Positions 27,981-58,975 of a DNA stretch of 64,000 nt are shown here, one piece after another. The notes beneath the pieces were generated by a model. It worked only from the letters and a program-made list of their open reading frames with translations. It did not search any database and was not told the DNA's origin. This stretch comes from Xestospongia bergquistia. Lineage: Eukaryota; Porifera; Demospongiae; Haplosclerida; Petrosiidae. The stretch covers positions 2,294,001-2,358,000 of the forward strand of contig OZ014424.1 of the NCBI GenBank assembly GCA_963965975.1, read 5' to 3'. Made by a program: the position numbers and the translations under genes. How positions within the stretch are numbered: position 1 is the first letter of the stretch; each line of letters begins with the position of its first letter.

Positions 27981-28564
27981 CTAAAGGTTCATAGCTTATA
28001 CAGTTTAAGAGCAGCAACTGTCCAGAAATTGGTTTGTCCGAATATTGATTACTCACTCTATATATATATAAATCGTTGGAGCCATGATTTCATAATAGTC
28101 ACTCACAACAAGAATACTGCTAACTGCAGATGTATTAATGCATTATATGGCAATAAATGTTAGATTCAGTCAAAGACTAGTAAGATGTGCAACAATCATT
28201 TCAGTAATATATTTCAGTGATTTTATATCAATGCAATGTCATACATACTACTACATTGATACACCTAGCTCCTCCATGATATATTATGTACTTGTCATGT
28301 ACAAATTATAGCGCACAGTATTAGTCAACTGTACAAACCAGGCCATTATTAAAGACTCGTCCAAAGGTTTACCAGCTTCTTTTAATTACTTGATCATGTG
28401 ATCCACCCTTGTGTGGATGGATGATAAAAGGGCTGTGGTGTGTAACAGTCTGACAACACAATATATAGTGACACAACAAATCTTGAAATCGTAATCGTTC
28501 AGATGGTAACGTATTATTCCTGTCGACTTACAATAAATCATAACCAAATTGTTTTAAAAGAAAT
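27981..28564. other. Upstream region of the intact cysteine-rich gene
   Basis: About 95% like 26640-27189. It keeps the CTCTATATATATATAAATCG block (about 28055), and AATATATAG (28458-28466) lies about 100 bases before the ATG as a possible TATA-like element. Not proved. Confidence 0.4.
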
Positions 28565-29500: not shown

Positions 29501-29754
29501 TTAAAACTAAATGTGCATGTATGATATTTAAAATACATTTATCTTTGCCTTTTTTTCTTTATATATGGGTGTGTTATTACTATACATGCTGTGTTTATGT
29601 TCATTATAGTTTCTTTATGTATTATCATTCATTTCCTGTTTGACTATCATTTATACTAATTATCATTTTCTTAATTAATTGATCTCGTATAATTGGAAAC
29701 ACCACCTTTGAAAAGTTAGTTTTTGTTGAATGTCAATTTTTGTGTTTTGTTCAA
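29501..29754. other. 3' flank of the cysteine-rich gene
   Basis: AT-rich. ATTAAA overlapping the stop at 29500 is a possible polyadenylation signal. Aligns with 58749-58975 at about 95%. Confidence 0.4.
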
Positions 29755-31240
29755 TCCGGGAGAGAACTCAACATATATAGTCCACCGAACCGGATTCTAG
29801 CAAGAACATCGATAGTTTCATGGTTCCCTGTCAAAACTCAGCTATCTCGGTCATATTCATCCTTTCGTACTCGACCACATGCTCTCTTAGCACCTCCATT
29901 TTGATTCCCATTTTTACCTCGTTGATAAAGAAAGAATGGCTCAAGATCCTACTACACTTAGGAAGAGACGAGGTGTCGTTCGTGCGTCGATAATTCGACT
30001 TTTCACTTGTCTGAAGGATTTGGAGAGCAAAGCTGATCAGCCCGCCGCCCTTAATCTCACGCGACAGATGTCGCAAAAACTGGAGAGTCTAGACTCCGAC
30101 TTTAAGCTTCATCACTATGCACTCATCGACGACACTGAAAGTATGCTCAAAGAGCAGGACATTCTAGATGGAGATGATGACGAGATGGCCACATTGTCCA
30201 CTTGTATTAAGCGGCTGATTGTAGTCTGTGACTCCTCCTCCAAATTTGGTCCTCGTAAGATAGCTTCCCGAAGGTTAGTTTGCCTTGGAAGAAATTTATT
30301 TACAGTAAACGAAAGAATTGGCTCCTTGTCTGCAGGGCCTGATGATGTTTGTCTTCTTCGTCAATATGAAGAGCAACTTCGTGATCTGAAGGTTGAATTG
30401 GGAGACCTCTGTAGCATTCTTTTGTCTCTTGGTATAGAGTAATCGGATCAGCTCTATACCTCGCAAACACAACTTGATAAAGAGCTGTTTAAATGCTCTC
30501 TTAAAATCAAGAGGTTGTTATTCCCGTCTGGTCAAGCCCTTGACTCGACTCTACCCTCATTCGATAGCAAGGGAGTTAAGTTGCCCAAATTGGACATACC
30601 TAAGTTTGATGGAAACATCATAAACTGGAGGACCTTTGGGAGCAATTCTCTATTTCAATTCATAGCCGATCTGGTTTGTCTGATGCAGAGAAACTGGTGT
30701 ATCTCCGACATTCGCTTAAGGATGGTACAGCAAAGGGTGTTGTTGAAGGTCTGTCTCAATCTGGTGATTGCTATTCTGAAGCCATTGAAAGCCTGAAGGC
30801 ATGCTATGATCGCCTACGGCTCATCCACCAGACCCATGTTCATATGAACCTTGAGGCCACTCCTCTCAGAGATGGAACTGGAAAAGAGTTCCGCCAACTC
30901 TATGATGTCATTCATCAACATCTCCAAGCTCTCAAAGCAATGGAGTATCAGCCATCTGGTTCCGTTATCACATCCGTGCTTGAGCTAATACCATGTTTGA
31001 GTGGCAAAAGTACAGTCAAGACTCGGTCGATGTGCCTCACTACCAAAGGCTCCTTGAGTTATGTGCCCAAGGTCATTCAGTGAAGAAGGGTTTTAATGCT
31101 GGAAAGTCAATAACCTTGTTTACAGCCAGTACTGTGAATTCTACAAGCCACAACTGTGTCATTTGTAAGTCTTACAAACACTCTCTATGTGAATGTCTGC
31201 AATTCAAGTTACTACCTCACGATGAGATGGTCTCGACATT
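29755..31240 (+). pseudogene. gag: BEL/Pao gag fragment, copy B
   Basis: GTCCACCGAACCGGATTC near 29780 matches the BEL primer-binding region. ORF 29936-30442 (168 residues) is a gag N-terminus with RLFTCLKDLESKADQP and SDFKLHHYALIDDTESMLKEQDILDG. The DUF1759 part follows at 30515-30796 (KLPKLDIPKFDGNIINW), continues in another frame at 30676-31083 (LVYLRHSLKDGTAKGVVEGL) and then another at 30993 (MFEWQKYSQDSVDVP). The zinc motif is CVICKSYKHSLCEC. The frame is then cut in the middle of LPHDEMVSTL and joined to ankyrin sequence. It is a family distinct from the complete BEL at 15982. Confidence 0.82.
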
Positions 31241-32814: not shown

Positions 32815-33215
32815 TGGAAATGGCAATAGGTTACACTGTAACTGGTAAAGCCACACCCACACCTCAAGCTTTCATAGCCACACCTATTAACTAATTGGGT
32901 CTAACTTATTTTAAGCAGATCATATATTTTAATTAATGCCCCAGGTAAGTGCAGAATGTAAGCCTAACTACAAGTACCATACCCACCTATCAAGCTTCAG
33001 TAACAACACATACTTAGATTTTGGGTGAGTTTTATTTTGACCACACCTCATATTTTAATTAATGCCCTTGATCAGCCCGGTATGTATGCAAGTACCACAC
33101 ACACTCATCCAGTTTTTCTAGCCACACCTACTAACCCATTTTGAGTCTGGCTTATTTTGACCACACCTCATATTTTAATTAATGCTCTAGGCCAGTCCAG
33201 AACAGCCTTCGGATA
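32815..33215 (+). repeat. Dispersed CCACACC-rich repeat, about three tandem units
   Basis: Units of about 110-130 bp, each ending with ACACCTCATATTTTAATTAA or a close variant (near 32925, 33045 and 33165). Also at 22295-22526 and 62935-63340, and inverted at 47595-47775. Confidence 0.72.
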
Positions 33216-33344
33216 TATGGTGCTGAAAATGAGAGAAATGACTATTTCCTTGTGACTTCCTTAGCCTTCTCTCTTGATGATATACTGACCCTTGTCCCTT
33301 GTTCTAGAAGATATAACTACATATTACTTTAATTACAAGTACAC

Positions 33345-34146
33345 ACTACCTAATTTATGATTGTTGAATGTACCACTCTCAAATGATATACTGCTAATGA
33401 TTACATTTTGAGACCTTATGTAAAGTACGAGTGAACTTACACTCTCAATGTAGAGATAATTGAGTGTCTTCACTCTCTGACCCCTAACATAAAGATCTGT
33501 AAACTTGAGAAAAGAAGAAAAACAATATGAAATACTATATAATCAAAAATGTAAAATAAAACATACATTATTGTTACCTCAAACTTACAACCAAAACCTA
33601 CATCCTGGATTACAATGATAATATATAAAAGTAATAAAATGCCATTAAATAACACAATGTGTATAATGAAAAATGTAAGACGTGATAATATGCCATAAAT
33701 TCACAACACAATAATATACAATACTAACTCACACACTCAGATGTCGAGATGAACAACAAGTGTCTTGAGAGAGCAACCTAAAGGTCTGCAGAAAAAATTG
33801 AGAGAAAAGCAAAAATGAAATAGTATATAATCAAAATTCTAAACAAAGCATACATTAATGTTACCTCAACTTACTACCACATCTAGATCCTGGACTCTAA
33901 CAACACTGTATAAATAAAACAAAATTAGAATTAATGACGTGCCATAAGTCAATGTAATTTACATTACAGACTTACATCTTGAGATGTAGAGATGAATAAG
34001 TGTCTTGATGTCCTGTAGTCCAAGGTAGCTATGTAGGTGAAAGAAAAATAATGAGTACTTATGTAATATAGACTAACATTACATTACAATATATTGACGG
34101 TATATCATTTGAGAGTGGTACATTCAACAGTCGTACATTTGGCAGT
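33345..34146 (-). mobile_element. Iteron-ended element with exon-like units on the minus strand
   Basis: The left end carries four 15-bp iterons beginning ACTACC, ATTGTT, ACTCTC and ACTGCT (33345-33404). The right end carries three in inverse orientation (34102-34146), the last reading CGTACATTTGGCAGT. 33363-33390 is a perfect 28-bp inverse of 34101-34128. Inside, the minus strand shows exon-like pieces ending in GTAAGT or GTGAGT (near 33436, 33725 and 33975), each containing a GA-AGACACT...CATCTC-like core similar to the large array's exon. Short pieces near 33600 and 33870 also have CAG before and GTAAGT after. A second copy starts at 63465 and runs off the window. Confidence 0.6.
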
Positions 34147-34550
34147 ATCACAACATAACATTACTAAAGTACTATTCCACAGTAATATTAACAAATAAGA
34201 AACTTACAAGTTATAAAAAGTTTAACCTGTATATGCGTGTGTGTAACTTAAAAGATAAAGAAATACAATTTTATATCATACGTTGTTATTATAATTTTAC
34301 TAACAGCATAAACTATATGTACCTCAAAGTATCATTACACCAGCATAACAAAATGTCAAAATTGTTTCACCAATATGTAATATGCCACAAGTGTACAAAT
34401 TTTGAGGGTTTAAATTTTCATGTTTTTTGAATTTTGCTTTATTATTTAAATTTCTTGGGTATTAACTTTCGTGTTTAGTTGGTGTGAAGTATTAATAATA
34501 GGTGTGGTATCAGACACGTGTTGTCAACACAAGCGGGATTTTCGCATAGT
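34147..34550. other. Intergenic, no gene seen
   Basis: AT-rich. No supported coding or RNA gene. Confidence 0.35.
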
Positions 34551-34733
34551 ATGGCTAGCTATTCCTATGAATCCATGGTGAAAGGGTACCATATATACAA
34601 GAAAATCTGGGAGGCAGTTGACGGAGACATACGTCAGTGTAAAAGAGAAAGAAGTAACCAGCACGATCTCTTTGCAGTAGCCATTATTTACACGCTGTTA
34701 TTGAGATCATGCGATTATGCGTGGGTGGAATAA
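34551..34733 (+). pseudogene. Short coding fragment of an uncharacterised domain
   Basis: From the second Met of the ORF 34518-34733 the protein reads MASYSYESMVKGYHIYKKIW with EAVDGDIRQCKRERSNQHD and LFAVAI. I recall similar GYHIY...W...C.RE..N..D.FAVAV patterns in uncharacterised sponge and cnidarian proteins, but cannot name the family. The expected continuation after FAVAI is absent, so this looks like an isolated exon or a fragment. Confidence 0.35.
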
Positions 34734-36142
34734 AGGTTAATTTCGTGATAAAACAACAACCCACAAATACAGTGAAATTACCCCCACAAAAATTTATACC
34801 CTTATTGTAGGCACAAAGCAAACTGCCTACGGAACAAAAAATCATATCATTACTGAATATAATTAAGTGTCTTGCTACATTATGTTACCATATTAAATCC
34901 ATTAGTGGCTCACATAACACCAAATTAAACACTCTGGAAGTGATTTGGTATTTATTATATTGTATAAACGTTTGCATGAATAATCAATATGTAATAACTT
35001 TTCATTGCTATTCAGGAGATAGGACTTGTTATAAACCATGAATCTACTCTTGCCATAAAATAAAAGTAAACATGACAATCAAGTGACCTTTAATCCTTCT
35101 TCACCTCTTGAAGCTGCAATGTAAGTAATTCGATATTTTTGCAGCAAACTGTACAGGTTCAAGTGAATTGTAGTATACAGACATAGAATACTGACTCGGT
35201 ATATTACAACTCTGTCCTGTAGTGTACTGACTCAGTATACTATGACTCTGACATGGAGTATACTGAGTCAGTATACTGCAGCTCACGTGAACGCTTACAG
35301 TTTGCCGCCATAAATTAAAATACAGACATTACTGCTGCAAGAATTGAAGAGAGATTGAAGGTCTCTCATTCTATCTTAAAAGATTGATATCTTTCTAGTT
35401 CACAGGTGTTATTGGAGTAGAATATAGAGTCAAGTTTATATGCTAACTCCTGGATAATGTAAAACAGTGTTATAATAAATGATGTGTCTTCTCTCCTTTG
35501 TCAGTTTAGAACAGACTGGGATTTATATACTGGCATTTGTCTCTGGAATATTTGTAAGAGTCTAGTCTGTAACATTTTGCACAATATTTTGTCAATATTA
35601 CAGGTTTTAATCTTCTGTAGACTACAGTAGACTACAGGTCAGTCAACTTTAAACTTACTACTTGATTAATTTGAGTCTTCTTATCACATTACACATGTAC
35701 ACTTCATTCTATTCAATGATATCTCACATTGCTAAATCTCTCGCTAATACTATCTCCTTAATAATAATGAAAGGTTAATAAATATTCTTGTTTTATATTC
35801 ATGTTTATACACCATACTAGATAATTTCCAGATTTTACCAAACTTTAGTCTTGTGGGATATCAACATCACATGGTAACATATTCTATAACATAGCAATAG
35901 TCTCAATTATAATCACTGATAATATGATTTCTTGTCCTTCAAGATATACAACTTGGACATCAGTGTAATGGTATATATATTTAATATTATATTGTATAAC
36001 TTAACAGTATTACCTTATCTTGTATGTTACATATACACACACTCACACACATGCAGATGAAGCACTTAATATTTGGTAAGTGTGTTAATAATTAAAATTT
36101 ATATACATTAACTGGTACTTTGACATTATAATTAAATGAAAT
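34734..36142. other. Intergenic, AT-rich, with a palindromic minisatellite
   Basis: No gene seen. The region 35188-35276 holds the palindrome repeats described separately. ACACACACTCACACAC near 36033 is a simple repeat. Confidence 0.4.
35188..35276. repeat. Three near-copies of a palindromic motif with a TGA(C/G)TCA core
   Basis: Copies near 35188, 35222 and 35258, about 35 bp apart. The last, GTATACTGAGTCAGTATAC (35258-35276), is a perfect palindrome of 9-bp arms around one base. The core TGAGTCA is the AP-1-type bZIP site, though any binding is inference. Confidence 0.6.
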
Positions 36143-36202
36143 ACTACCAAATGTAACACTGCCAAATGTAATACTGCCAAATGTAATGTTGTCAATATAA
36201 TC
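36143..36202 (+). repeat. 15-bp iterons, left border of the 11-kb array
   Basis: ACTACCAAATGTAAC, ACTGCCAAATGTAAT, ACTGCCAAATGTAAT in exact 15-bp register (36143-36187) plus a weaker fourth unit. Confidence 0.85.
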
Positions 36203-36259: not shown

Positions 36260-39200
36260 TATCATTGGACATCACGATCAAGGCTCAAGACATTTATCTA
36301 TCTCACAGAGTCTGGGTTGTAAGTTAAAAGCATACGCTACTAGTTTATATTAACATATAATATATTATTGTTACTCTTAATTATTATTTGTTATTTCTAG
36401 TTTATTTCAATAGTATCGTTGGACATCACGATAAAGGCTCACCACATTACCTATCTCAAAGAATCTGGGGCATAAGTTAACAGGATATGCTACTAGTTTA
36501 CATTAACTCATAATATATATTTATTTCTTTTAATTTTCTTTTATTTCTATAGCATTGCTGCACATCACAATTAAGGCTCAAAACATTTATCTATCTCAAA
36601 GAGTCTTGGGTGTAAGTTAAAAGCATACATTGGTAGTTTACATTAACACATAATATATCATTATTACCCTTATTTTTTTTACTTATATAGCATCGCTGCA
36701 CATCACGATCAAGGCTTAAGACATTTATATATCTCAAAGAGTCTTGGGTGTAAGTTAAAAGCATTCCTTGCTAGTTTACCTTAACACATAATACATTATT
36801 ATCACCCTTATTTTTTTTTACTTCTATAGCATCTCTGCACATCACGATCAAGGCTCAAGATATTTAACTATCTCAAAAAGTCTGGGGTGTAAGTTAACAG
36901 CATACACTGCTAGTTTATATTAACACATAATATGTTATTATTATTCTTAATTTTTTTTTATTTCTATAGCATAGCTGCACATCACGATCAAGACTCAAGA
37001 CATTTATCTATCTCACAGAGTCTGGGGTGTAAAATAAAAGTATACGCTACTAGTTTACATTAACATATAATATATTATTGTTGCTTTTAATTTTCTTTTA
37101 TTTCTATAGCATCACTGGACATAACAATCAAGGCTCAAGACATTTATTTATATGAAAGAGCCTAGGGTGTAAGTTAACAGGATACGCTACTAGTTTGCAT
37201 TAACATATAATATATTATTATTACTTTTGATTTTCTTTTTTTTCTAAAGCATCACTAGACATCACAATCAAGGCTCAAGACATTCATCTAGCTCAAAGAG
37301 TCTGGGGTGTAAGTGAACAGCATACTGTACTAGTTTACATTAACATAATATATATTATTATTTCTCGTAATTTTCTTTTTTTTCTATAGCATCACTGCAC
37401 ATCACGCTCAAGGCCTCAAGATATTTATCTATCTCAAAGAGTCTGGGGTGTAAGTTACTAGCATAGGCTACTAGTTTACATTAACATATAATATATTATT
37501 ATTACTTTTGATTTTCATTTATTTATAAAGTACAACTGGACATCACTATCAAGGCTAAAGACATTCATTTAGCTCAAACAGTCTGGTGTGTAAGTGAACA
37601 GCATACGCTACTAGTTTACATTAAAACATAATAATATACTATTATTACTCTAAATTTTTTTATTTCTATAACTTCATTGCACATTGCGATCAAGGCTTAA
37701 GACATTTATCTATCTCCAAGAGTCTGGGGTGTAAGTTAAAAGCATACGCTACTACTTTACGTTAACATATTATATATTATTATTACTCGCAATTTTTTTT
37801 ATTTTGATAGCTTCGCTGGACATTGCGATCAATGCTAAAGACATTCATCTATCTCCAAGAGTCTGGGGTGTAAGTTAACAGCATACGCTACTAGTTTACA
37901 TCAACACATAATAATATACTATTATTACTCTTAATTTTTTTATTTCTATAGCTTCGATTAACATTGCGATCAACGCTCAAGACATTCATCTATCTCCAAG
38001 CGTCTTGGGTGTAAGTTAACAGCATACAGTACTAGTTTACATTAACATATTATATATTATTATTTCTCGTAATTTTTTTTTATTTCTATAGCATCGCTGC
38101 ACATCACACTCAAGGCTCAAGGCATTTATCTATCTCAAAGAGTCTAGGCTGTAAGTTAAAAGCATACGCTACTAGTTTACATTAACATATTATATATTAT
38201 TATTACTCTTAATTTTTTTTATTTCTATAACTTTGCTGGACATTGTCATCAAGGCTCAAGACATTTAACTATCTCAAAAAGTCTGGGATATAAGTTAACA
38301 GAATACGCAGCTATTTCAAATTAACACATGATATGTTATTATTACTTTTAATTTACTTTTATTTCCACAGCATCGCTGCACATCACGATCAAGGCTCAAG
38401 ACATTTACCTATCTCAAAGAGTCTTCTGTGTAAGTTAAAAGCAAAAGCTGCTACTTTACATTAACACATAATATGTTATCATTACTCTTATTTTTCTTTT
38501 ATTTCTATAGCATAGATGGACATCACGATCAAGACTCACGACATTCATCTATCTCAAAGAGTGTGGGGTGTAACTTAAAAGCATATGCTACTAGTTTACA
38601 TTAACATACAATATATTATTATTACTTTTAATTTTCTTTTTTTTTCTATAGCATTGCTGCACATCATGATCAAGGCTGAAGACATTCATCTATTTCCAAG
38701 ATTCTGGGGTGTAAGTTAACAGGATATGCTACTAGTTTACATGAACACATAATATAATTATTATTATTACTTTTAGTTTTCTTTTATTTCTATAGGATCA
38801 CTAGACATCACAATCAAGGCTCAAGACATTCATCTAACTGAAAGAGTCTGGGTTGTAAGTTAACAGCATACGCTACTAGTTTACATTAACACATAATAAT
38901 ATACTATTATTACTCCTAAATTTTTTTTTCTATAGCTTTGCAGAATATTGCGATGAAGGCTCAAGACATTAATGTATCTCCTAGAGTCTGGGGTGTAAGT
39001 TAACAGCATACGCTGCTAGTTTAAATTAACAAATAATATGTTATTATTACTATTAATTTTCTTTTATTTCTATAGCATTACTGCACATCGCGATCAAGGC
39101 TCAAGACATTTATCCATCTCAAAGAGTCAGGGTTGTATGTTAAAAGCATACGCTGCTAGTTTACGTGAACACATAATATATTATTATTACCCTTATCTTT

Positions 39201-42200
39201 TTTACTTCTATAGCATCGCTGAACATCACGATGATGGCTCCAGATATGTATCTATCTGAAAGAGTCTGGGGTGTAAGTTAACAGCATACGCTGCTAGTTT
39301 ACATTAACACATAATATGTTATTATTACTCTTATTTTTCTTTTACTTCTTTGGCATCGCTGCAGATCACAATCAAGGCTCAAGATATTTATCTATCTCAT
39401 AGAGTCAGGGGTGTATGTTAAAAGCATATGCTTCTAGTTTACATTAACACATAATATATTATTGTTACTCTTAATTTTCTTTTATTTCTATAGCATCACT
39501 GCACATCACGATCAAGTCTCAAGATATTTATCTATCTCAAAGGATCTGCGGTGTAAGTTAACAGCATAAGGTGCTTCTTTAAATTAACACATAATATATT
39601 ATTATTACTCTTAATTTTCTTTTACTTCTATAGCATTGCTGCACATCACGATCTAGCCTCAAAATATTTATCTATCTCAAAAAGTTTGGGCTGTTAGTTA
39701 ACAGCATACACTGCTAGTTAACGTGAACACATAATATATTATTATTACCCTTATTTTGTTAATTCTATAGCATCACTGCATATCACAATGATGGCTCAAA
39801 ATATATATCCATCTCAAAAAGTGTGGATTGTAAGTTAAAAGTATATGCTACTAGTTTACATTAACATATAATATATTATTATTACTTTTAATTTTCTTTT
39901 ATTTCCATAGCATCACGGCACATCACAATGAAGGCTCTAGGCATTCTTCCATTTCCAAGAGTCTGGGGTGTAAGTTAACAGCATATGCTGCTAGTTTACA
40001 TTAACCTATAATATATTATTATTACTTTTAATTTTCTTTTATTTCTATAACATCGCTGCACATCACGATCAAGGCTCAAGACATTGATCTATTTCCAAGA
40101 GTCTGGGGTGTAAGTTAACAGCATACGCTACTAGTTTACATTAACATATAATATATTATTATTACTTTTAACTATCTTTTATTTCTATAGCATCACTGGA
40201 CATCACAATCAAGGCTCAAGATATATATCTAGCTCAAAGAGTCTGTGGTGTAAGTTAACAGCACACGGTAGTAGTTTAAATTAACATTTTATATATTATT
40301 ATTACCCTTATTTTTTACTTTTACAGCATCGCTGCACATCACGATCAAGGCTCAAGATGTTTATATTTCTCGAAGAGTCTGGGGTGAAAGGTAACAGCAT
40401 ACGCTGCTAGTTTACATTAACATATAATATGTTATTATTACTCTTAATTTTCTTTTATTTCTATAGCATCGCTGCATGTTACGATGAAGGCCTCAAGACA
40501 TTTATTTATCTCACCGAGTCTAGGGTGTAACTTAAAAGCATATGCTACTTGTTTACATTCCCTTATAATATATTATTGTTACTTTAAATTTTATTTTATT
40601 TTTCCATAGCATCGCTGCATATCACAATGAAGGCTCAAGGCATTCGTCTATTTCCAAGAGTCTGGGGTGTAAGTTAACAGCATATGCTACTAGTTTACGT
40701 TAACCTATAATATATTATTATTACTTTTAATTTTCTTTTACTTCTATAGCATCACTGGACATCACAATCAAGGCTCAAGACATTCATCTAGCTGAAAGAG
40801 TCTGGGGTGTAAGTTAACAGCATACGCTTCTAGTTTACATTAACACATAATAATATACTGTTAAGACTCTTAATTTTTTTATTTTTTTCTATAGCTTCGC
40901 TGCGCATCACGATCAAGGCTCATGATATATATCTATTACAAAGAATCTGGTGTGTAAGTTAACAGCATACTCTGCTAGTTTACATTAACACATAATATGT
41001 TATTATTACTCTTAATTTTCTTTTATTTCTATAGCATCACTGCATGTCACGATGAAGGCCTCAAGACATTTATTTATCTCACAGAGTCTGGGGTGTAACT
41101 TAAAAGCATACGCCTCTTGTTTACATTAGCATATAATATATTATTGTTTCTTTTAATTTTCTTTTATTTTTCCATAGCATCACTGCATATCACAATCAAG
41201 GCTCAAGGCATTCATCTATTTCTAAGAGTCTGAGGTGTAAGTTAACAGCATACACTACTAGTTTACATCAACTTATAATATATTATTATTACTTTTAACA
41301 TTCTTTTATTTCTATAGCATCACTGGACATCACAATCAAGGCTCAAGATATTTATCTATCTCCAAGTGTCTGGGGTTTAAGTAAACAGCATATGCTGCTA
41401 GTTTAAATAAACACACAATATCTTATTATTACTCTTAATTTTCTTTTATTTCTATAGCATCGCTGCACATCACAATCAAGGTTCAAGACATTTATCTATC
41501 TCAAAGAGTCTGGGGTGTAAGTTAAAAGCATACGCTGCTAGTTTCAGTTAACTCTTAATATATTATTATTATCCTTATTTTTCTTTACTTCTATAACATC
41601 GCTGCACATCACGATCAAGGCTTAAGATATTTATTTATCTCAAAGAGTCTGGAGTGTAAGGTAACAGCATACGCTACTAGTTTACATTACATATAATATA
41701 TTAATATTACTTTTAATTTTCATTTATTTCCATAGCATCGGTGCACATCATGATCAAGTCTCAAGATATTTATCTATCTCACAGACTCTGGGGTGTAAGT
41801 TAAAAGCATACGCTACTAGTTTACATTAACATATAATATATTATTATTACTTTTAATTTTCTTTTATTTCTATAACATCGCTGCACATGATGATCAAGGC
41901 TCAAGGCATTCATCTATCTCCAAGTGTCTGGGTGTAAGTTAACTGCATACGGTACTAGTTTATATTAACATATAATAATATATTATTATTACTCTTAATT
42001 TTTTTAATTCTATAGCTTCGCTAGACATTGTGATCAAGACTCAAGACATTTATCTATCTCAAAGAGTCTGGGGTGTAAGTTAACAGCATACGCTGCTAGT
42101 TTCAATTAACACATAATACATTATTACTACCCTTATTGTTTTACTTCTATAGCATCGCTGCACATCACAATGAAGGCTCATGGTCTTTATATTTCTCAAA

Positions 42201-45200
42201 GAGTCTAGGGTGAAACATAACAGCATACGCTGCTAGTTTACATTAACACATAATATGTTATTATTACTCTTAATTTTCTTTTATTTCTATAGCATCAGTG
42301 CACATCATGATCAATGCTCAAGACAATCAACTATTTCAAAAAGTCTGGGGTGTAAGTTAACAGGATACGCTACTAGTTAACATTAACATATAATATATTA
42401 CTATTACGTTTGATTTCCTTTATTTCTAAAGCATCACTGGACATCACAATCAAGGCTCAAGACATTCATCTAGCTGAAAGAGTCTGGGGTGTAAGTTAAC
42501 AGTATACGCTACTAGTTTACATTAACTTATAATATATTATTCTTACTTTTAATTTTCTTTTATTTCTATAGCATTTCTGGACATCACAATCAAGGCTGAA
42601 GACATTCATCTAGCTGAAAGAGTCTGAGGTGTAAGTTAACAGCATACGCTTCTAGTTTACATTAACATATAATAATATACTGTTAAGACTCTTAATTTTT
42701 TTATTTTTTTCTATAGCTTCTCTGCACATCACGATCAAGGCTAAAGATATTTATCTATCTCAAAGCATCTGGGGTGTAAGTTAATGGCTTACGCTGCTAG
42801 TTTACATTAACGCAATAATGTGTTATTATTACTCTTAATTTTCTTTTATTTCTATAGCATCGATGCACGTCACGATCAAGGCCTCAAGACATTTATTTAT
42901 CTCACAGAGTCTGGGGTGTAAGTTAAAAGCATATGCTACTAGTTTACATTAACATATAATATGTTATTGTTACTTTTAATTTTCTTTTATTTCCATAGTA
43001 TCGCTGCACATCACAATCAAGGCTCAAGCATTCATCTATTTCCAAGAGTCTGGGGTGTAAGTTAACAGCATATGCTACTAGTTTACAATAACATATAATA
43101 TATTATTATTACTTGTAATATTCTTTTATTTCTATAGCATCGCTGCACATCACAATCAAGGCTCAAGGCATAATATATTATTATTACTTTAAATTTTTTT
43201 TTCTATAGCTTCTCTAGACATTGTGATCAAGGCTTAAGACATTCATTTATCTCCAAGAGTCTGGGGTGTAAGTTAACATCATTCGCTACTAGTTGACATT
43301 AACGTATAATAAATTATTATTACTTTTAATTTTCTTTTATTTCCATAGTATCGCTGCACATCACAATCAAGGCTCAAGGCATTCATCTATTTCCAAGTGT
43401 CTGGGGTGTAAGTTAACAGCATACGCTACTAGTTTACATTAACATATAATATATCATTATTACTTTTAATTTTCTTTTTTTTCCATAGCATCACTGGAAA
43501 TCACAATCAAGCCTCAAGACATTCATCTATCTCAAAGAGTCTGGGGTGTAAGTTAAAAGTACACCCTACTTGCTTAGATTAACCTATTATCTATTATTAT
43601 TACTCTTAATTTTCTTTTAATTCTATAGCATCGCTGCACATCACAATCAAGTCTCAAGATATTTATCTATCTCAAAGAATCTGGGGTGTAAGTTAACAGC
43701 TTACGCTGCTAGTTTACATTAACACATAATATGTTATTATTGCTCTTAATTTTTTTTTATTTCTATAGCATCGCTGCACGTCACGATCAAGGCCTCAAGA
43801 TATTTTCTATCTCACAGAGTCTGTGGTGTAAGTTAAAGCTTACTCTACTAGTTTACATTAACATATAATATATTGTTGTTACTTTTAATTTTCTTTTATT
43901 TCCATAGCATCGCTGCACATCACAATCAAGGCTCAAGATATTCTTCTAGCTCAAAGAGCCTGTGGTGTAAGTTAACAGCATACGCTACTAGTTTACATTA
44001 ACACATAATATATTATTATTACTCTTAATTTTTCTTATTTTTATAGCTTTGCTGGAGATTGCGATCAAGGCTCAAGACATTCATTTATCTCCAAGAGTCT
44101 GGGGTCTAAGTTAAAAGCATACGCTACTAGTTTACATTAGCGTATAATATATTATTATTACTTTTAATTTTCTTTTATTTCTATAGCATAGCTGCACATG
44201 ACGATCAAGGCTCAAGACATTCATCTATTTCCAAGAGTCTGGGGTGTAAGTTAACAGCTTACGCTGCTAGTTTACATTAACATGTAATATATTATTGTTA
44301 TTTTTAATTTTCTTTTATTTCTATAGCTTTGCTGCACATCACAATCAAGGCTCAAGACATTCATCTATTTCCAAGAGTCTGGGGTGTAAGTTAACAGCAT
44401 ATGCTGCTAGTTTAAATTAACATATAATATGTTATTATTACTCTTAATTCTCTATTACTTCTATAGTATCGCTGCACATCACGATCATGGCTCAAGATAT
44501 TTATCTATCTCAAAGAGTCTGGGGTGTAAGTTAACACCTTATGCTGCTAGTTTACATCAACACATAATATATTATTATTATCCTTATTTTTTTTACTTCT
44601 ATAGCATCGCTGCAAATCAGGATGAAGGCTCAAGATATATATCTATCTCAAAGAGTCTGGGGTGTAAGTAAACAGATTACGCTTTTAGTTTACGTTAGCA
44701 CATAATATGTTATTAATAATCTTAATTTTCTTTTATTTCTATAGCTTCGCTGCACAACACCATCACGGCCTAAAGACATTTATCTATCTCACAGAGTCTG
44801 GGGTGTAAGTTAAAACCATACGCTACTAGTTTACATTACCATATAATATATTATTGTTACTTTTAATTTTCTTTTTTTTCCATAGCATCGCTGCACATCA
44901 CAATCAATGCTCAAGGCATTCATCTATTTCCAAGAGTCTGGGATGTAAGTTAACAGCATACGCTAGTAGTTTACATTAACATAAAATATATTATTATTAC
45001 TTTTAATTTTCTTTTATTTCTATAGCATTGATGCAAGTCACGATCAAGGCTCAAGATATTTATCTATTTCCAAAAGTCTGGGATGTAAGTTAAAAGCATA
45101 CGCTACTAGTTTACATTAACATATAATATATATTGTTATTACTGTTAATTTTCTTTTATTCCTATAGTATCGCTGCACATGATGATCAAGACTCAAGACA

Positions 45201-47259
45201 TTCATTTATTTCCAAATGTCTGGGGTGTAAAATAACAGCATACGTTACTAGTTTACTTTAACATATAATATATTATTATTACTTTTAATTTTCTTTTATT
45301 TCCATGGTATTGCTGCACATCACAATCAAGGCTCTAGGCATTCATCTATTTCCAAGAGTCTGGGGTGTAAGTTAACAGCATACGCTACTAGTTTGCATTA
45401 ACATATGATATATTATTATTACTTGTAATATTCTTTTATTTCTTTAGCATCACTGGACATCACAATCAAGGCTCAAGACATTCATTTATCTCCAAGAGTC
45501 TGGGCTATAAGTTAACAGCATACGCTACTAGTTTACATTAACATAAAATATATTATTATTACTTTTAATTTTCTTTCTTTTCCATAGCATCACTGGACAT
45601 CACAATCGTTCAAGACATTCATCTATCTCAAAAAGTTTGGGGTGTAAGTTAAAAGTACACGGTACTTGCTTAGATTAACCTATTATATATTATTATAACG
45701 CTTAATTCTTTTTCTTTCTATAGCCTCGTTGCACATTGCGATCAAGGCTCAAGACATTCATCTATCTCCAAGACTCTGGAATGTAAGTTTACAGCGTACA
45801 CTACTAGTTTACATTAAGATATAATATATTATTATTACTCTTGATTTTCTTTTATTTCTATAGCATTGCTGCACATCACAATCAACGCTCAAGACATTCA
45901 TCTCTCTCCAAGAGTCAGGGTTGTAAGTTAACAGCATACGGTACTAATTTACATTAACTTATTATATATTATTATTACTCGTAATTTTTTTTATTTCTAT
46001 AGCTTCAATGGACATTGCGATCAAGGCTCAAAACATTTATCTATCTCATAGAGTCTGGGGTGTAAGTTAACAGCATACACTGCTACTTTAAATTAACACA
46101 TAATATGTTATTATTACTCTTATTTCTCTTTTATTTCTGTAGCATCGCTGCACATCACGATGAAGGCTCAAGATATATATCTATCTCAAAGAATCTGGGG
46201 TGTAAGTTAACAGCATATGCTTCTAGTTTACTTTAACACATAATATGTTATTATTACTCTTAATTTTCTTTTATTTCTATAGCTTCGCTGCACAACACCA
46301 TCACGGCCTAAAGGCATTTATCTATCTCACAGAGTCTGGGGTGTTAGTTAAAACCATACGCTACAACTTTACATTACCATATCATATATTATTGTTACTT
46401 TTAATTTTCTTTTTTTTCCATAGCATCGCTGCACATCACAATCAAGGCTCAAGGCATTCATCTATTTCCAAGAGTCTGGGGTGTAAGTTAACAGCATATG
46501 CTACTAGTTTACATTAACATATAATATATTATTATTACTTTTAATGTTCTTTTATTCTATAGCATCACTGGACATCACAATCAAGGCTCAAGACATTCAT
46601 CTATCCGAAAGAGTCTGGGGTGTAAGTTAACAGCATATGTTACTCTCTTACATTAACACATGATATATTATTATTACTCTTAATTTGTTTTGTTTCTATA
46701 GCTTTGCTGGACATTGCGATCAAGGCTCAAGATATTCATTTATCTCCAAGAGTCTAGGATGTAAGTTAACAGCATACTCTACTAGTTTAAATTAACACAT
46801 AATATGTTATTATTACTCTTAATTTTTATTTACTTCTATAGCGTCGCTGCACATCACGATCAAGGCTAAAGATATTTATCTATCTCAAAGCGTCTGCGGT
46901 GTAAGTTAACAGCATACTCTTCTAGTTTACATGAACACATAACATATTATTATTACCCTTATTTTTTTACTTCTATAGCATCGCTGCACATCACGATGAA
47001 GGCTCAAGATATATCTCTATCTCAAAAAGTCTGGGGCTTAATTTTCTTTTATTTCTATAGCATCGCTGCACGTCACGATCAAGACTCAAGACATTCATCT
47101 ATTTCCAAGAGTCTGGGATGTAAGATAACAGCATAAGCTACTAGTTTACATTAACATATAATATATTATTATTACTTTTAATTTTCTTTTTTTTCCATAG
47201 CATCACTGGACATCACAATCAAGGCTCAGGACATTCATCTATCTCAAAAAGTCTGGGGT
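36260..47259 (+). repeat. Tandem array of about 78 exon-plus-intron-like units of about 140 bp
   Basis: Each unit has a polypyrimidine stretch ending TTTATTTCTATAG, then a 59-nt exon-like block with core AAGGCTCAAGACATTCATCT and end GTCTGGGGT. A GTAAGTTAACAGCATACGCT start of the next intron-like part and TTTACATTAACATATAATAT follow. Spacing measured near 40110-40670 is 136-142 bp. Most copies keep GTAAGT and TAG; a minority have TATAA or GTATG instead. The first block is 36260-36318 and the last ends at 47259. A few units are shortened, for example near 43170 and 47035. Some copies are 60 nt through GGCCTCAAG. The consensus 59-nt block has no stop in any forward frame. Confidence 0.88.
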
Positions 47260-47310
47260 GTAAGTTAACAGCATACATTTTGAGATGTAATATATATAAT
47301 GACTGGCATT

Positions 47311-47369
47311 GTTATATTTGACAGTATTACATTTGGAGTGTTATATTTGGTAGTGTTACATTTGATAGT
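47311..47369 (-). repeat. 15-bp iterons, right border of the array, inverted
   Basis: GTTATATTTGACAGT, ATTACATTTGGAGT, GTTATATTTGGTAGT, GTTACATTTGATAGT, the inverse of the left-border motif. Confidence 0.8.
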
Positions 47370-48076
47370 ATTGGTAAATGTCTGAGTATCTTTATGTATA
47401 CTTCCCTATATGTTGTACACAATTATATAATCTCTAACTGTAAGGTGAATTTGAGAATAAGTTAAAGTATTAAACAATTATGTCCTCTAGAGCAAAGGAA
47501 AAATGTGAGTATATTGTCCAGAGCTGAAGAATTCACAAGCAACTAATTACAGTCTCATTGCCAGCATACTAAGGTATTTTGGGAGACTACACAGAGATTA
47601 ATTTTAAAATGAGGTGTGGTCAAAAAAAGCCACACCCACAATAGTTAGTAGGTGTGGCTGTCAAAGCTTGATGAGTGGGTGTGATGTTGGCACTTAAATA
47701 CAGATTTGTTGGTGTGTCTTTACTAATAGGGTGTGATTATATTATACCTCACCTACTGCCATTCTCACCTTTAATTTTTACCTTAAGACTTAATACAGTT
47801 ACCACTTAGCTTGTATCTAGTGCTTTTGGTTGCTTTTACATAATAATATACCCCTTGCTTTTCTAGTACATGACTACATGTGCATGTAAATTGATGAATG
47901 TCTACAGCGAAGTTAACAGTCACATCCCCAAGTTTTTTCTAGGAATAAATGTTATAAAAAACATTTATGAGATGTCTTTCAAATAAGGCCAATTTAATTA
48001 ATAGCTCAGCCAGAATATGTGGCTTGGAACCTGCTAAATAACCAGCAGACTTTTAAGCTCATTCAGACTTGGTCTT
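47370..48076. other. Intergenic, contains an inverted copy of the CCACACC repeat
   Basis: 47595-47775 reads GGTGTGG where other copies read CCACACC. No gene seen. Confidence 0.45.
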
Positions 48077-48191: not shown

Positions 48192-50799
48192 ATGAATATA
48201 GGTTTTTCGTGTGATGTTAATTATCAACTCTATTATTTATATTAGGTTACCTATTTCCATTTTACCTTCATTTTTATTTTTATTTTCATGTGTTCCATCT
48301 AATTCTTGGCATAGTGAATTGAGTTTCAGTCCTTTTAAAGCAATGTAAAATGAGTATATTATAACATTCTAAACTTTGTGACAAATTTTGGTGATATATA
48401 ACCAGTTTCTATAACACATCTCAATTATAGTGAATTCACAAATACATAATTTATTATTAAAAGTGTGATGTAACCAAGTTTAACTCTACAGAAATGTTTT
48501 TTTAATCAAAAGTGATTACATGACAACAAGAGATGTGATCAAATAATTGAACGTAATAAATGATTAATTTCAGGTTAAGAAGCGCATGTATTAAATTAAC
48601 AAATAACAAATACATAACAATTAACAAATACATCTAAGAACATACATAACTGCCACTACTTTCAGACAAAAGCAATGTTCACAACAATTTATTTAAGTTT
48701 CATTCATTATAATGAAGCAGCATACAAGAATACATTCACATTTTAGGTATTGACAGGTCAGAAAATATCACAATCAACAATTGATAAGCCAAACATCATT
48801 TATTATTAATTTTTGCAGTGATTTCTTTTTGTCTAATACTTTAGTCATTTCTTGTTTTGCAAATTTGTTATATGTGGACAGTTTGAGATTAAAAGTATTT
48901 CTAGTCTTGTGTTAACAGTTACCATGTCACAGATATGACATATGTCAATACCTGTAATGTTTATATTACCAATGATCACATTGATTGGAAGTCCAATGAG
49001 TGTTGTGTTAAAAGATATAGATCTCATTATCATTTCAAGATAATTTCATGACAATGCCTTTCGCTTTCATTTCTTTCAGCAGATGCATCACATTCTCACA
49101 TTCTTCCTTACTTGGTGTAGTGAGAGCAATGGTTTGACTTGATCACATAGTATCTATTGCAAAATAAGGTTATGTGCCCTATAATATGTATAACACAATT
49201 AATATGTAGGACACACAAGTGAATAAGCGTATCTTATTACAAAACTTTTTAAAGAAGCTATAAGGTCAAAACTAAAACAACGTCCATACATTTTTTTTAA
49301 TGATTTATCGATACTTTATAAACCCTAAACATCAACTACACACATCAAAGAATCTTGACACTACTCTAGACATTTTATTTTTCCAAATTTGTCCATCTTT
49401 ATCATCACTTCTTATTGAATGAAAAACAGCTCATTAGAATTAATCTATGAACACCAGTTACTCTCTGGTTGTACATATAGTTTATAATGAGTTGCATTAA
49501 TTAAGAAATAACCAAAAAGCAATGAACTTGTATATGTAAATTGTCAATTTATTTTTTTATTGTTCCAAACTGAACAAAAAACTATTAATGTTCATTTAGT
49601 CTTTTTATTCCTTTAATGCTCAAGTAGTAAATTTGCCAAAGCCAAACTTTATAAGTAAGATTAAAATCATTTAAAAAAAAATAAAAGACTTTTCAAAAAT
49701 AGCAATGAAAGCAACAAAATGGGAATGCAGCAACAATTGCTTTCACAGCCCTTTCCTACATTTTAAGCACTATACCATGCTTAATATATAATACCACATT
49801 GTATTAAACAGTTACAAACCTAATGTCAGGTAGATTTGTAGAGTGTTTTCATCACAATCAACTAAGAGATTTCTTTGATAACAACAATCAATACACTAAG
49901 GAAGTTTAACAATAATTCAGCTTATATAGAAACTCACTTGATGGATCATGTGACCACAAGTCATACAACATAGAGTTGCTCTATATGTTAATCTAACAAT
50001 GGAAAATACCTGTCAACATGTAAACATTATTTATAAAACTATTATGTACATTCCATTGTATAGTCCTCAAAAAATATGCAATAAGGATCCTCATATATTA
50101 CTTTCACTTGGTCAGAGTTATGGCCAACCACTGTGTAAACCTGTTTCTGCTATTTAAAAATTCCTCATACTCCCCAGGTCCCAAACGCAATATTTGACCT
50201 AGACAGGAAAAAATTCTAGATGAGTTTAAACTAGCATTGAAAATATCAAATGGTTGCAAGAGAAGGAACAAACAAACTAAATAAACATGAGAAGAAGGAG
50301 GAAAGACAATAACTGAAGGACAAAAGGCCAATATTAAAGGCTGAATTACAAATGAGAGGTATGCATCTGTATACAAGATAGTTTAAAGCTTATTAAATGC
50401 TATGCATGTCATTATAATGCATAATATTATAAAGAACTAATGTTTCTAAAGCAATTTTTATGCAATGAATTTCAACTAAGAATGGTGCACCTAATAAAAA
50501 ATGAAGCAAGTACACAGAGTATGTTAAAATGAAATGTATTTGTCACTGTTAAATGTTCCTAGTGATAAATAAACATTAATTATCAAAACAAAACTCAATT
50601 ACTGCTGAAAATTTCAGATGTGGTGTTAACTCTTCATCTTATAGGAGACTCAGTAACTTTTGCTTCTATATTACAGTGCAAAAGTACACTTAATGTGATA
50701 TGTTAATTGTTTTACAATTCCTAAACATTAACAGAGACAATAGATTATATGGGTACTTTAGTAATGTATATGCTTTATATACAACTTATTATTAAACAG
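48192..50799. other. Intergenic or intronic, no confident gene
   Basis: Two minus-strand open stretches could be exons. One (48845-49140) reads LTTPSKEECENVMHLLKEMK then an ORF starting MIMRSISFNTTLIGLP. The other (50104-50230) ends with LGPGEYEEFLNSRNRFTQWL. I cannot name either. Confidence 0.3.
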
Positions 50800-51239
50800 A
50801 TGCAAGTTTAATCAATAGATTAGTGGATAGTACAGATTTAAGGACTAGAGGACAATCTAAAGCTGAAAAAATGAATGGTAACTACCTTTGTTTGTATAAT
50901 GTAGCAGTGAGTAATTTTAACTTTCAATAGGAACAGTGACTAATGATGACATTGGTGAATTCTCAACTCAAAAAATGGTATGTAAGTTTGGTTCTATTAA
51001 TTAAGTGGATTTACTTTTTATCAGATACAACTTGCATCCATAAACATAGTGGATAGTACAGGTGTAAGGACTAGAGGAAAATCTAAAGATGGAAAAAAAA
51101 ATGGTATCTGCTTTTATATAATGTTGAAGTAAGTAATTTTAACTCTCAATAGGAACATTGACTAGTGATGATGCCTTTAAAGGAAAACCTGATCAACTTA
51201 GGGGAATGACAATTGTAAACAATGGTGCAAAGATAAAAG
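50800..51239 (+). CDS. Four phase-matched exons of an unknown protein, partial
   Basis: Exons by splice signals: 50800-50877, 50931-50977, 51025-51103 and 51153-51239. Each has AG before it and GT after it, and introns are about 50 nt. The reading frame stays open across all junctions (phases 1, 0, 1). Exons 1-2 (VDSTDLRTRGQSKAEKMNG then TVTNDDIG) and exons 3-4 (VDSTGVRTRGKSKDGKKNG then TLTSDDAF) are a duplicated exon pair. The family is unknown. The position just upstream of the Ulp1-like relic suggests it may be the N-terminal part of that gene. Confidence 0.5.
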
Positions 51240-51420
51240 GTAGGTTACTCCAATAAATTATATTAGGTTAATTGCCAATATATTCTGTAATTCTCTTGTG
51301 CCATAGTTCTTTTTAGCATTTTGCATGGACTGATTCAACTTATTAATGAATAATTATTTGGGAAATTGAGTGTTTTAGTTGTTCTTTTAGACTTAGAGTT
51401 ATAGTTTGTTAACTGAATCA

Positions 51421-52247
51421 AAAGTGGATGATCTATGGTGGGTGAAACACCTTAATTTCAAGTTACGTGATTTTCAATGTTTATGTCAAGGAAAAGATTT
51501 ATCATACACTATCATTAACGTTGTACAAAGACTAATATAATGAAACAGCAGTTTCCAAATTTATTTGGATTTCAGCATACCTTATTTGGTGAAACCCTAA
51601 GTATTCATCCTGTGCCTTCCATGTTTTATTGTGTTCAGATTCTTCATACTGGTCAGAATGTGGGTTAGGTATGCTTTATCTGTGTATTTACAACAAAAAT
51701 GTTCACCAAATAAATCAATGATTGTGCAACACAACACCAATACTAAGTTCTTACTTTCATAATACATTTACCTTTACTTTACATTTTAATGTATACAAAT
51801 GTAATCAATATTTTAAGCTTTGAGAGATACATATAATTTCCCTCCTTTAGGCGATAATCATTGGATATCCTTTTTATATTCTTTGTTTGGTTCAACACAA
51901 AAATTAGTTTATACCAATAAATAATCTTACACTGTTCAGAAGTTATCTGTGCAGCTACAGATAGGAACAAGTAAATGTAGTTTGTTTGCAATAGGATTTG
52001 CTGTGGAAACATGTTTAAAAGATAATGTAGAACTTATTTCCTTATTTATCTGTATAGATGTTTAGAGAGTGGCAAAATAACTTCATTTCCAAAGATAGAC
52101 ATAAATACCTTATCCCATTCTATTGATCAAAGATGTAACATTAATGTCTATTGTATATGTAGAAAACCTGACTTTTTTGATAATGAAATGGTACAATGTG
52201 ATTGTTGTAAACATTGGTATTATTGCAAAATGCGTCTCTGTACTTGA
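51421..52247 (+). pseudogene. Ulp1-like cysteine protease relic with C-terminal PHD finger
   Basis: Pieces in order are WWVKHLNFKLRDFQCLCQGK, TIINVVQRLI, then after a frameshift near 51530 KQQFPNLFGFQHTLFGETL and YCVQILHTG. A GT-AG intron (51652-51850) joins exactly to GDNHWISFLYSLFG, which holds the catalytic His-Trp. GTSKCSLFAIGFAVETC with the catalytic Cys and RCLESGKITSFPK follow. The tail has VYCICRKPDFFDNEMVQCDC with CKHWYYCKM, a PHD finger cut short by a stop at 52245. Stops inside and the frameshift show it is dead. Such protease/PHD genes are often repetitive in sponges and cnidarians. Confidence 0.7.
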
Positions 52248-52722
52248 CATGAGTTTTTGGTAATCCCCTCAGTGTCTAGAGAGTTGATTGTTATGTCTAG
52301 TGTGTATTGACTGATATTTTTTCTTATGTCAATGGCTTTTCAGTATCTATGATTTAATAACTTGTAATTTGTTTAATGGTACTCACATGACTTTATATGC
52401 TTTTTGTCTATGTTAATAAATTGATTCTCATGTTTTCTTTCTTAATCTTTACTTCAATAGTTTGGTCATTATTTTTTGTAGATCAAAATGGGTACCTGCT
52501 AAATAATCGACTCGCAGCCACTCCCAACTAAATAAGTGGGGAGTGGCTGTGTGTTGATTACACGTTGGGCCATAATTCGTGCGCAAGTCAAATTCTGGCT
52601 ATTACATGATTCTTGTTAGATGCTTCTGGAATGATTTTGGCTTTCCTTTTTCGAATTGTCACTAAGGGTCTGAAATTTGGAAAGTTTATCCTGTGGTTTT
52701 CAGACACTTGCATTGTAGCAAC
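52248..52722. other. Intergenic flank of copia B-2
   Basis: AT-rich. Contains GCAGCCACTCCCAAC and its partial inverse GGGGAGTGGCTG (about 52514-52550), a small hairpin. No gene seen. Confidence 0.4.
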
Positions 52723-52968: not shown

Positions 52969-53748
52969 ATGGCTGAAGCAACAATTGGACAAACAAAATG
53001 TTCTATTGACAGACTAGATGCAAACAATTGGTTCATTTGGAAATTCCAGATAAACATCTCCTGCTGGCTAATGGTCTGTGGGCCTAGTAGACGAAACAGA
53101 GGTACTCGGGCATGGAGCGACAGCTCAAGAAGAAGCTGAATACAAAAAAAGAGCGCAGAAGCGTTCTCAACAATTGTACTCACTATCAGCCCGTCTCAAC
53201 TTTACCTTATTACTTCATATGATAGACTGAAGCCAGCATGGGATGCTTTGTGTAACTATTTTGATAGAGATACACTAGCTAACAAACTCCTACTGAAGAA
53301 ACAATATTTTCGTTTAGAGATGAAAGAAGGTACCTCCATCGAAGCTCACATGAAAAGGATGAATGAATTGACTGATAAGCTCTCCGCCCTCGGAGCACCT
53401 ATTGCAGAGGAAGACCAAGTGGTAACGCTCCTTGGTAGTTTGCCTCCAAGTTTTCAAACGTTAGTTACAGCTCTAGAGGCTCGAGACACAGTCACTTTGA
53501 GCCATGCTCAGCAATTGTTGATCCATGAAGAAAAGAAGTTGAACAAGGAATATGGTAGGGAAAGGCCAGGTGACCCTGGTACAGCACTCTACCATCATAA
53601 GAGAGGTAGTAACAGGCAACGTCGCCAATGGAAACTGAAGTGCTTTACGTGTGGACAAACAGGAAATCTTTGACAGGACTGTCCCAAGAAACCACAAGAG
53701 CATAATCCTAAACCAACTGGTAGACACAATGCAAAACCTGCTAAAGAG
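52969..53748 (+). pseudogene. gag: copia B-2 gag relic
   Basis: ATG at 52969 starts MAEATIGQTKCSIDRLDANN then WFIWKFQI. The frame is lost near 53050 and again before 53248. The open part 53248-53673 has LANKLLLKKQYFRLEMKEGT and VVTLLGSLPPSFQTLVTALE. The zinc knuckle CFTCGQTGN is broken by a stop at 53671 and continues as QDCPKKPQE. Confidence 0.86.
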
Positions 53749-55361
53749 ATGTCACAGGAGTCAGAGGGAGTATTTACAGCCTTAGCTGATTCATCAGTGA
53801 ACAAAGAGTGGATAATATACTCTGGTGCCACTAGACACATCACTCATTCAAAGGAACTGTTGTATCAGTATTGCAAGTTTGAAGTTCCAGAGAGAGTGAG
53901 TCTTGGTGATGGACGTCACGTAGAAGCTCTTGGTACTGGAGATATTCAAGTTAATATGAGATTTAAGGTTAGCAAACAGAAAAATTGTGTCATGAGACGT
54001 GTGTTGTATGTCCCTAAACTTACAAGTAATTTGTTTTCAGTGAGAACAGCAGTATCAAAGGGCAATACTGTTAGATTCACAGACCTAAATTGTTTTAATA
54101 AAAATAGAAAAGGGAAGTTAATTGGCATGGGGTCGTTGGTTGACAATAAGTTATACAAGCTGAACTGTAAACCTGTGGTGCAGGTACAACAGTGTGCCTC
54201 ATCATCATTTGAAAAGGATAACTCAGCCGATTTATGGCATAGAAGACTTGGTCATTTAGGGAAACAGCAAATGAGAGAAGTAGCTTCTAAAGAGCTCGTG
54301 AGAGGAATGACCATTTCGAAGAATGATGAGCTATCATTTTATGAATCATGTATTGAAGGCAAACTGCACAGAAAACTGTTTGAGCATGTTGGAGGAATTC
54401 GCTCCACCAGAAAGTTACAATGCGTTCACAGTGACATGTATGGACCAATACCCACTGAGTCCTTAGAACAAAAGAGATATTTTGTGTCATTCATTGATGA
54501 CTATTCGAGATGTTGTCAAGTCTATTTTATGATACACAAATCCAAATTTTTACATAAGTTTAAAGAGTTTGAAGCTCTTGCTACAAATGATAGTGGATTG
54601 AGTATCAGTACACTTCGTACAGATAATGGATGGGAGTATGTTTCTAAAGAATTTGAAGAATTTCTTAAGTCTGAAGGTATCAGACATGAGCTCACTGTCC
54701 CATATTCCCCTGCACAGAATGGAGTAGCAGAAAGACTAAATCACACTTTGATGTAGTCAGCAAGAACCATGATTAGATTTGCAAGGTTACCTGATAGCTA
54801 TTGGGGTGAAGCTGTGGCTACAGCAGCTTACATTAGAAACAGAGTTCCTACCAGTGCATTTAAAGAAAGGGTATCACCTTATGAGAAATGGTACCAAAGG
54901 AGACCAGACCTAAGTCATCTGAGGGTGTTTGGTTGTGTGGCTTATGCCCACATTCCAGACTGTCAAAGAAACAAATTAGACAAAAAGGCTAAGAAGTGTA
55001 GATTTGTTGGTTATAGCCTCAACTACAAAGGTTATAGATTGATGAATGAGAAAACCATCAAAGTTGTGATAAGCAGAGATGTGGTTTTCAGTGAAAATGA
55101 TTTTTGGGTAAACAAAACTGAAGCAGAGACAATCATCCCAACTGTGGTGAATTTTCAAGTAGACTCTGATGAGAATGACACTCAACCTAATAGGCCTGTG
55201 GGAGAGATACGTCAGTCAATTAGGCAGAGACATCCTCCAGTTAGGTTTGGAACGGATGAATATGTCGAAGCTGCAATAGTGAATGAAGTGGTAACACCTG
55301 AAAGTATAGAAGAAACGTTTGCCATTGGAGTGCAGCAGTTAATGCAGAGTATGAATCCCTA
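53749..55361 (+). pseudogene. copia B-2 protease and integrase relic
   Basis: The protease site reads IIYSGATRHITH, so the catalytic Asp is Tyr. The zinc region has LWHRRLGHLGK and SFYESCIEGK, where a zinc-binding Cys is Tyr. The integrase core has VHSDMYGPIPTES, TLRTDNGWEYVS and GVAERLNHTLM, keeping the three catalytic acids. A stop at 54754 interrupts TLMxSARTMIRF. The frame then runs to 55360 through WYQRRPDLSHLRVFGCVAYA. A small deletion near 55325 ends it. Confidence 0.87.
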
Positions 55362-58748: not shown

Positions 58749-58975
58749 AACTAAATGTGGATGTATGATATTTAAAATACATTTATTTGCCTTATTTTCT
58801 TTATATATGCGTGTGTTATAACTATACATGCAGTGTTTATGTTCATTATAGTTTGTTTATGTATTATCATTCATTTTCTGTTTGACTATCATTTACACTA
58901 ATTATCATTTTTTAAATTAATCTTGTATAATTGGAAACACCACCTTTGAAAAGTTAGTTTTTGTTGAATGTCAAT
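58749..58975. other. 3' flank of cysteine-rich copy 3
   Basis: Aligns with 29501-29754. Confidence 0.4.

Follow-up and report, generated by a model that had tools for sequence, protein, structure and literature searches.

The array and its surroundings

The window (the whole 64,000-nucleotide stretch of Xestospongia bergquistia contig OZ014424.1 analysed here) carries on its plus strand an 11 kb array of 80 exon-intron-like units, each a 59-nt block with a spacer of about 81 nt, the first block starting at position 36260 and the last ending at 47259. This count comes from unit-by-unit fitting, and TRF also detects the array, splitting its 140-bp repeats into two adjoining rows, 36401-43171 (48.3 copies, 82% match) and 43170-47036 (27.7 copies, 83% match); the first-pass annotation's estimate of about 78 tandem mini-units in 11 kb is thus borne out. 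Its description of the unit, a 59-nt block plus roughly 81 nt of intron-like sequence, matches the consensus we built from 77 of the 80 units, only neighbours 100-200 nt apart being taken. The 81-nt spacer of that consensus runs from GTAAGTTAA to TTTATTTCTATAG, reads GTAAGTTAACAGC...CTCTTAATTTTCTTTTATTTCTATAG, and includes a branch-site-like CTTAAT, picked out by eye, upstream of its T-rich end. An AG precedes the block in 73 units and a GT follows it in 71; both are present in 65, leaving 15 without one or the other.

Further parts, all on the plus strand, bracket the array. A 19-nt leader exon at 36057-36075, preceded by CAG and followed by GTAAGT, was recognised from the sequence and by a pattern match at C14:2330051-2330083. 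Between leader and array, at 36134-36193, repeat analysis and a duplex test identify the left bracket, a tandem 15-bp repeat resembling AAATGTAATACTGCC. The right bracket, at 47310-47369, carries the left repeat's reverse complement, a 15-bp unit in about four copies, and lies between the array and a short tail exon-like piece (47491-47504, CTAG before it and GTGAGT after it). The tail, identified from the sequence and from regular-expression matches in seven loci, is the weakest part of the plan.

To the left of the leader comes a palindromic region, 35136-35313, a possible shared promoter of two divergent halves, and beyond it, on the minus strand at 32819-35135, a diverged inverted counterpart of the right half that repeats the array plan. 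This counterpart has brackets of its own (33345-33398 and 34093-34146), repeats of about 288 bp inside it (33513-33869), and a 19-nt leader counterpart recognised by eye (34208-34226). The inverted half is present in part at four other loci of the family described below, L009, L013, L016 and L019. Each outer end of the divergent pair (32851-33191 and 47584-47709) has a short repeat containing GGTGTGGTC and GCCACACCCA motifs; this repeat, which recurs at 22341-22478, could be either a dispersed element or an end signal.

Further features lie elsewhere in the window. Two almost identical ORFs for a cysteine-rich, secreted-type protein begin about 30.5 kb apart, at 27341 and 57875 (regions 27341-31083 and 57875-60384), a spacing and similarity that point to a tandem segmental duplication. 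The protein matches nine proteins and no Pfam family. A link between it and the array was considered and rejected: all ten matches lie on C14, so the association is probably hitchhiking. Retroelement remains, with matches to the RVT_1 and RVT_2 reverse transcriptases, to DUF1759 and, below cut-off, to an integrase zinc-binding domain, occupy 1-31000 and 53140-56552. On the plus strand, 50780-52250 resembles the remnant of a small-exon gene and contains a 35-residue piece whose PHD-finger match stays below threshold (16.6 bits against a cut-off of 24); a protease-like piece next to it has no Pfam match. The ORF list shows unknown residues at about 22520-22760, where the bases are therefore N.

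A multi-copy family

The first-pass annotation had proposed searching the genome with the array block. In 146.5 Mb on 21 contigs, 15 of them large, genome searches revealed a multi-copy family with relatives on many contigs: among the matches listed, array relatives with 64-88% identity occur on C3, C4, C5, C8, C10, C12 and C14, and queries with flanking and variant sequences add C2, C6, C7, C11, C13 and C15. The leader exon with its splice signals, searched as a pattern allowing at most two mismatches, matches 71 places on 13 of the 15 large contigs, with no match on C1 or C9; the reversed pattern, used as a control, has no match. The pattern contains splice letters and is incomplete, missing leader relatives on C4 and C10. 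A regular expression that fixes part of the signals found the leader, which usually begins with ATG, in 14 fetched loci, its donor broken in L020. Most of the arrays tested are flanked by the leader and the complementary 15-bp repeats.

Arrays range from one unit (L030) or two (L029) up to the 80 of the window. Within each array the tandem exons keep a constant length, as in 69 of the 80 window units and 23 of 23 in L018, and that length is set array by array. The commonest block is 59 nt in the window, L009-L012, L023 and L024; 60 nt in L018-L022; 62 nt in L014, L016 and L017; and 58 nt in L025-L027, as well as in L013 by two of five units. Unit number changes fast, to judge from L009, a second copy to the right of the window that arose in a 30-kb tandem duplication: its flanks are 91-96% alike to those of the window array, yet it has 16 units. 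Other copies are young. An 8-kb query taken around one C6 copy has full-length matches of 98-100% in at least 15 places (its own among them) on C4, C6, C10 and C13, plus partial ones on C15 and at other points of C6, from the 18 candidates scored out of 914, and the leader region is matched at 98-100% in at least 40 places (40 of 143 candidates scored). Copies so alike over the tested 8 kb appear to have spread as larger segments.

Two further observations concern C6. In L028, on the minus strand, foreign inserts at 3050-3650 and 5050-5600, similar in sequence by eye, break the exon blocks of the C6 array. Also on the minus strand, upstream of the leader, is a second, irregular repeat array (L032:2527-9884 and L033:308-3818), with 36 matches (24 + 12) and starts resembling CTGCAG|GGCTGTTTAGCAAGACAGAAG. 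Many of its units contain AATAAA, by eye, and so may be repeated terminal exons.

Conservation of splice signals

In the consensus of all 19 fetched loci, the block stands between YAG and GT. The donor is GTRAGT in 17 of them and GTATGT in L026 and L027, and these consensus signals remain functional although block length, at 58, 59, 60 or 62 nt, varies between arrays. AG and GT are both intact in every unit of L018 (23/23), L019 (18/18), L017 (20/20) and L016 (29/29), in 15 of 16 units of L009 and of L012, 16 of 17 of L025 and 21 of 24 of L010, and in 50 of 67 units of L014, alongside 65 of 80 in the window. The counts for three arrays of C4 are 12 of 26 (L020), 22 of 50 (L021) and 30 of 55 (L022).

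The first-pass annotation held that the splice signals persist in most units even as other bases change, and suggested asking whether substitutions avoid them. For AG and GT, changes were compared with those in columns of the same consensus base, in 12 arrays classed as live and three (L020-L022) as decayed; L011, L013 and L026-L031, with few or irregular units, were excluded, and three L023 units with a gap at a splice position were dropped from the unit counts. On the window alone the claim does not stand, 22 changes being found against 33.9 expected (P=0.24), nor do L014 (14 against 25.6, P=0.19) or the decayed arrays (66 against 78.7, P=0.19) show significant avoidance. It does stand for related arrays: eight of them (L009, L010, L012, L016-L019 and L025) have 5 changes where 34.1 are expected (P=0.00035), and L023-L024 have none against 14.8 (P=0.0004). 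The 12 live arrays pooled have 41 changes against 108.1 expected, a count as low as this arising in 0 of 20,000 draws, in tests that are not independent because the arrays are related.

Rates give a similar picture. In seven of seven live lineages AG and GT change more slowly than neighbouring intron bases, and in the decayed lineage they do not (0.157 against 0.150), a contrast that is partly circular because "decayed" is our own label, assigned from low conservation and broken signals. L023-L024 and L020-L022 are about equally diverged (mean conservation 0.81-0.84), and only the former have kept AG and GT. Compared with exon bases, AG and GT in L010 change no less often (0.033 against 0.029). 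L031 offers a chain of 15 consecutive 59-nt exons separated by introns of 60-110 nt; the chain finder required AG and GT-like signals, so the chained exons of L031 and L028 cannot bear on signal conservation.

Short introns are usual in this genome. The median is 55 nt, shorter than the 81 nt of the array, among fifteen introns of CCT genes, one of them doubtful, that were taken with GT and AG required from five of seven loci (none came from L036 or L037); for A. queenslandica a genome-wide median intron of 81 bp is reported (PMC3412847).

Protection of AG and GT in all seven live lineages, the retention of the signals across block lengths, and a leader that precedes the arrays agree with the first-pass view that the units behave as exon-intron units, and the pooled related arrays make it seem that the splice signals are under purifying selection in this family. 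An alternative that we take seriously, though we think it unlikely, is a plain satellite, built by amplifying an exon-intron fragment of an old gene, with splice motifs that are passengers and alike through homogenisation only. The lack of significant protection in the window alone, the loss of AG or GT at background rate in L020-L022, and the homogenisation of each array to its own block length are what this would lead one to expect. Homogenisation fails, however, to explain AG/GT change rates below those of neighbours in seven lineages, and it leaves unexplained a leader exon that lies outside the array.

Coding potential

No frame of the 59-nt consensus contains a stop, and the leader usually supplies an ATG; a repeat protein read in rotating frame was therefore tested. 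Stops occur in 54 of the 57 spliced frames of the 19 loci, so the blocks are probably noncoding. The three spliced frames of the window contain 29, 29 and 19 stops, and the ATG frame, one of those with 29, closes after 32 residues; these figures use only units with both signals kept, 71 of them in the window, and may therefore misplace a frame. When exons were chained instead, L031 had 7 stops and L028 had 9. The leader itself contains a stop in L018 and L019, where AG and GT are intact in every unit. Nor do the blocks behave as frame-preserving coding exons, 59 nt being a length that shifts the frame; L010 and L011 are exceptions, the former being open for 475 codons and the latter for 103, counted from the leader ATG. 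This may be a chance effect of the few mutations in these arrays, but those two copies may also be coding.

Protein coding was accordingly rejected for the window and most copies, L010 and L011 excepted, on stops in both concatenated and chained exons. The corresponding explanation, tandem-exon genes whose leader ATG opens a frame through the mini-exons, with many copies now pseudogenes, draws on the open consensus and on the two open arrays; we judge it very unlikely in view of the early stop in the window, the stops in L031 and L028, leader stops beside fully intact splice signals, and blocks of 58, 59, 60 and 62 nt that shift the frame between arrays.

The window has no match in Rfam 15 (SL RNA, snoRNA, ribozymes and others) at gathering thresholds. 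A structured exon or intron was rejected as a candidate, folding being no better than in mononucleotide shuffles (z 0.94, -0.51 and 0.26), and among 14 pairs none had changed on both sides.

The bracket repeats

Pairing between brackets was assessed in 16 loci, a set that leaves out L014, L020-L024 and L031. In 11 of the 16, pairing far exceeds that with a shuffled partner (mononucleotide shuffles), at z -5.6 to -13.0; it is weaker in L013 (z -3.6), L026 (-2.3) and L027 (-1.9); L029 and L030 showed no complementarity in this test. Co-evolution of the brackets within a locus was considered and rejected, own pairs giving -87.5 and cross pairs -86.4 kcal/mol.

Inverted short-repeat arms that enclose an array, strongly complementary in most loci and dispersed over many places, would suit a foldback-like DNA element with the brackets as its ends and the array as cargo. 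Homology that runs beyond the brackets on both sides, together with young copies that appear to have spread as larger segments, makes that explanation extremely doubtful. The first-pass suggestion of a transposon-derived cassette spliced out of host transcripts is not supported, since homology extends past the array to the leader and tail pieces, the likeness of young copies spans 8 kb or more, and no open frame of 110 residues or more occurs between 31084 and 53139 of the window.

Chromosomal position

Nine contigs (C4, C5, C6, C7, C10, C11, C13, C14 and C15) each have one mid-contig cluster of near-identical copies. Every such core comprises four to eight copies of one leader type in a single orientation over 0.37-0.98 Mb, 49 copies in total, and the spacings within cores number 40, of which 37 measure 109-220 kb and the rest 11, 65 and 81 kb. 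The remaining 22 leader places lie outside cores, either beside a core (on C4, C5, C7, C10 and C14) or on the coreless contigs C2, C3, C8 and C12. The window array, some 190 kb away from the C14 core, is one of these older copies. Measured along the contig, the 71 leader places all fall between 0.26 and 0.74 of its length. The cores, 5.7 Mb in all, contain none of the 132 kinase matches listed; as a sign that cores are gene-poor this is weak (read by eye, 127 of 1263 candidates scored, and kinases cluster).

The layout resembles a centromere with a young core and older flanks, and the confinement of recent copies to one mid-contig cluster on nine contigs suggests that the family may belong to pericentromeric chromatin; it is possibly pericentromeric.

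A proposed spliced gene family

The best-supported reading, one we hold to be probable, is a noncoding family of spliced tandem-exon genes, with splicing deduced from selection on its signals; the sequence evidence suggests that a satellite-like repeat is here really a processed RNA gene. The array would be the body of one such gene in a multi-copy family. Transcription would probably start near the palindromic region and pass through the 19-nt leader exon, an intron carrying the left bracket, 1 to 80 mini-exons of 58-62 nt with short introns between them, an intron carrying the right bracket, and the tail exon. The exons would not be read as protein; they would yield a long RNA in which a monomer of about 59 nt recurs. 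Unequal exchange would alter the number of units, and each array would become homogenised to its own block length.

A bolder extension of this noncoding-gene reading, which strikes us as distinctly improbable, would have clusters of near-pure mini-exon genes in centromere-proximal domains of most chromosomes produce a bracket-folded pre-RNA whose exon run is back-spliced into large circular repeat RNAs marking or organising those domains.

If the noncoding spliced-gene reading is true, an array that resembles a satellite can serve as a spliced RNA gene, its unit a selected exon-intron pair under no coding frame. Arrays with 1 to 80 exons, some live and some decayed, would then amount within one genome to a natural experiment on short-intron splicing, and on the demands it makes on exon number and length. 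If the clusters are centromeric, they would also offer sequence-based access to the centromeres of this lineage.

Comparison with known systems

Among the matches listed in a search of open-licence PMC papers, no noncoding spliced mini-exon family was found, and several known systems share part of its plan. Formation of circular RNAs can be driven by complementary intronic repeats, and circular-RNA loci resemble the present family in having such repeats in the introns on both sides of an exon run; the difference is that brackets of one locus here pair no better with each other than with brackets from different loci.

According to the available part of the source, Tetrahymena has tandem arrays of 90-bp exons, protein-coding and in phase 2, for which the authors propose growth by unequal crossing-over (PMC6564038). 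Exons of one length in tandem and short introns are common to both systems, and the youngest copies are concentrated near centromeres in Tetrahymena (PMC6564038) and in mid-contig, possibly pericentromeric, clusters here, whereas the sponge blocks are 58-62 nt long, shift the frame and mostly contain stops. The sponge arrays also have bracket repeats, which that part of the Tetrahymena paper does not mention (PMC6564038).

The lncRNA Firre is likewise a noncoding RNA with a repeated domain, a 156-bp repeating RNA domain, and is linked to several chromosomes (PMC7734150). It is, however, one mammalian locus with a longer repeat, whereas the family described here, known from its sequence, has many loci and up to 80 units. 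Satellite DNAs and satellite RNAs, on the available account (PMC10505914), share the long homogenised tandem arrays, which here are clustered mid-contig. Unlike satellite DNA as portrayed there, the repeating unit of the sponge arrays looks like an exon-intron pair with protected splice signals.
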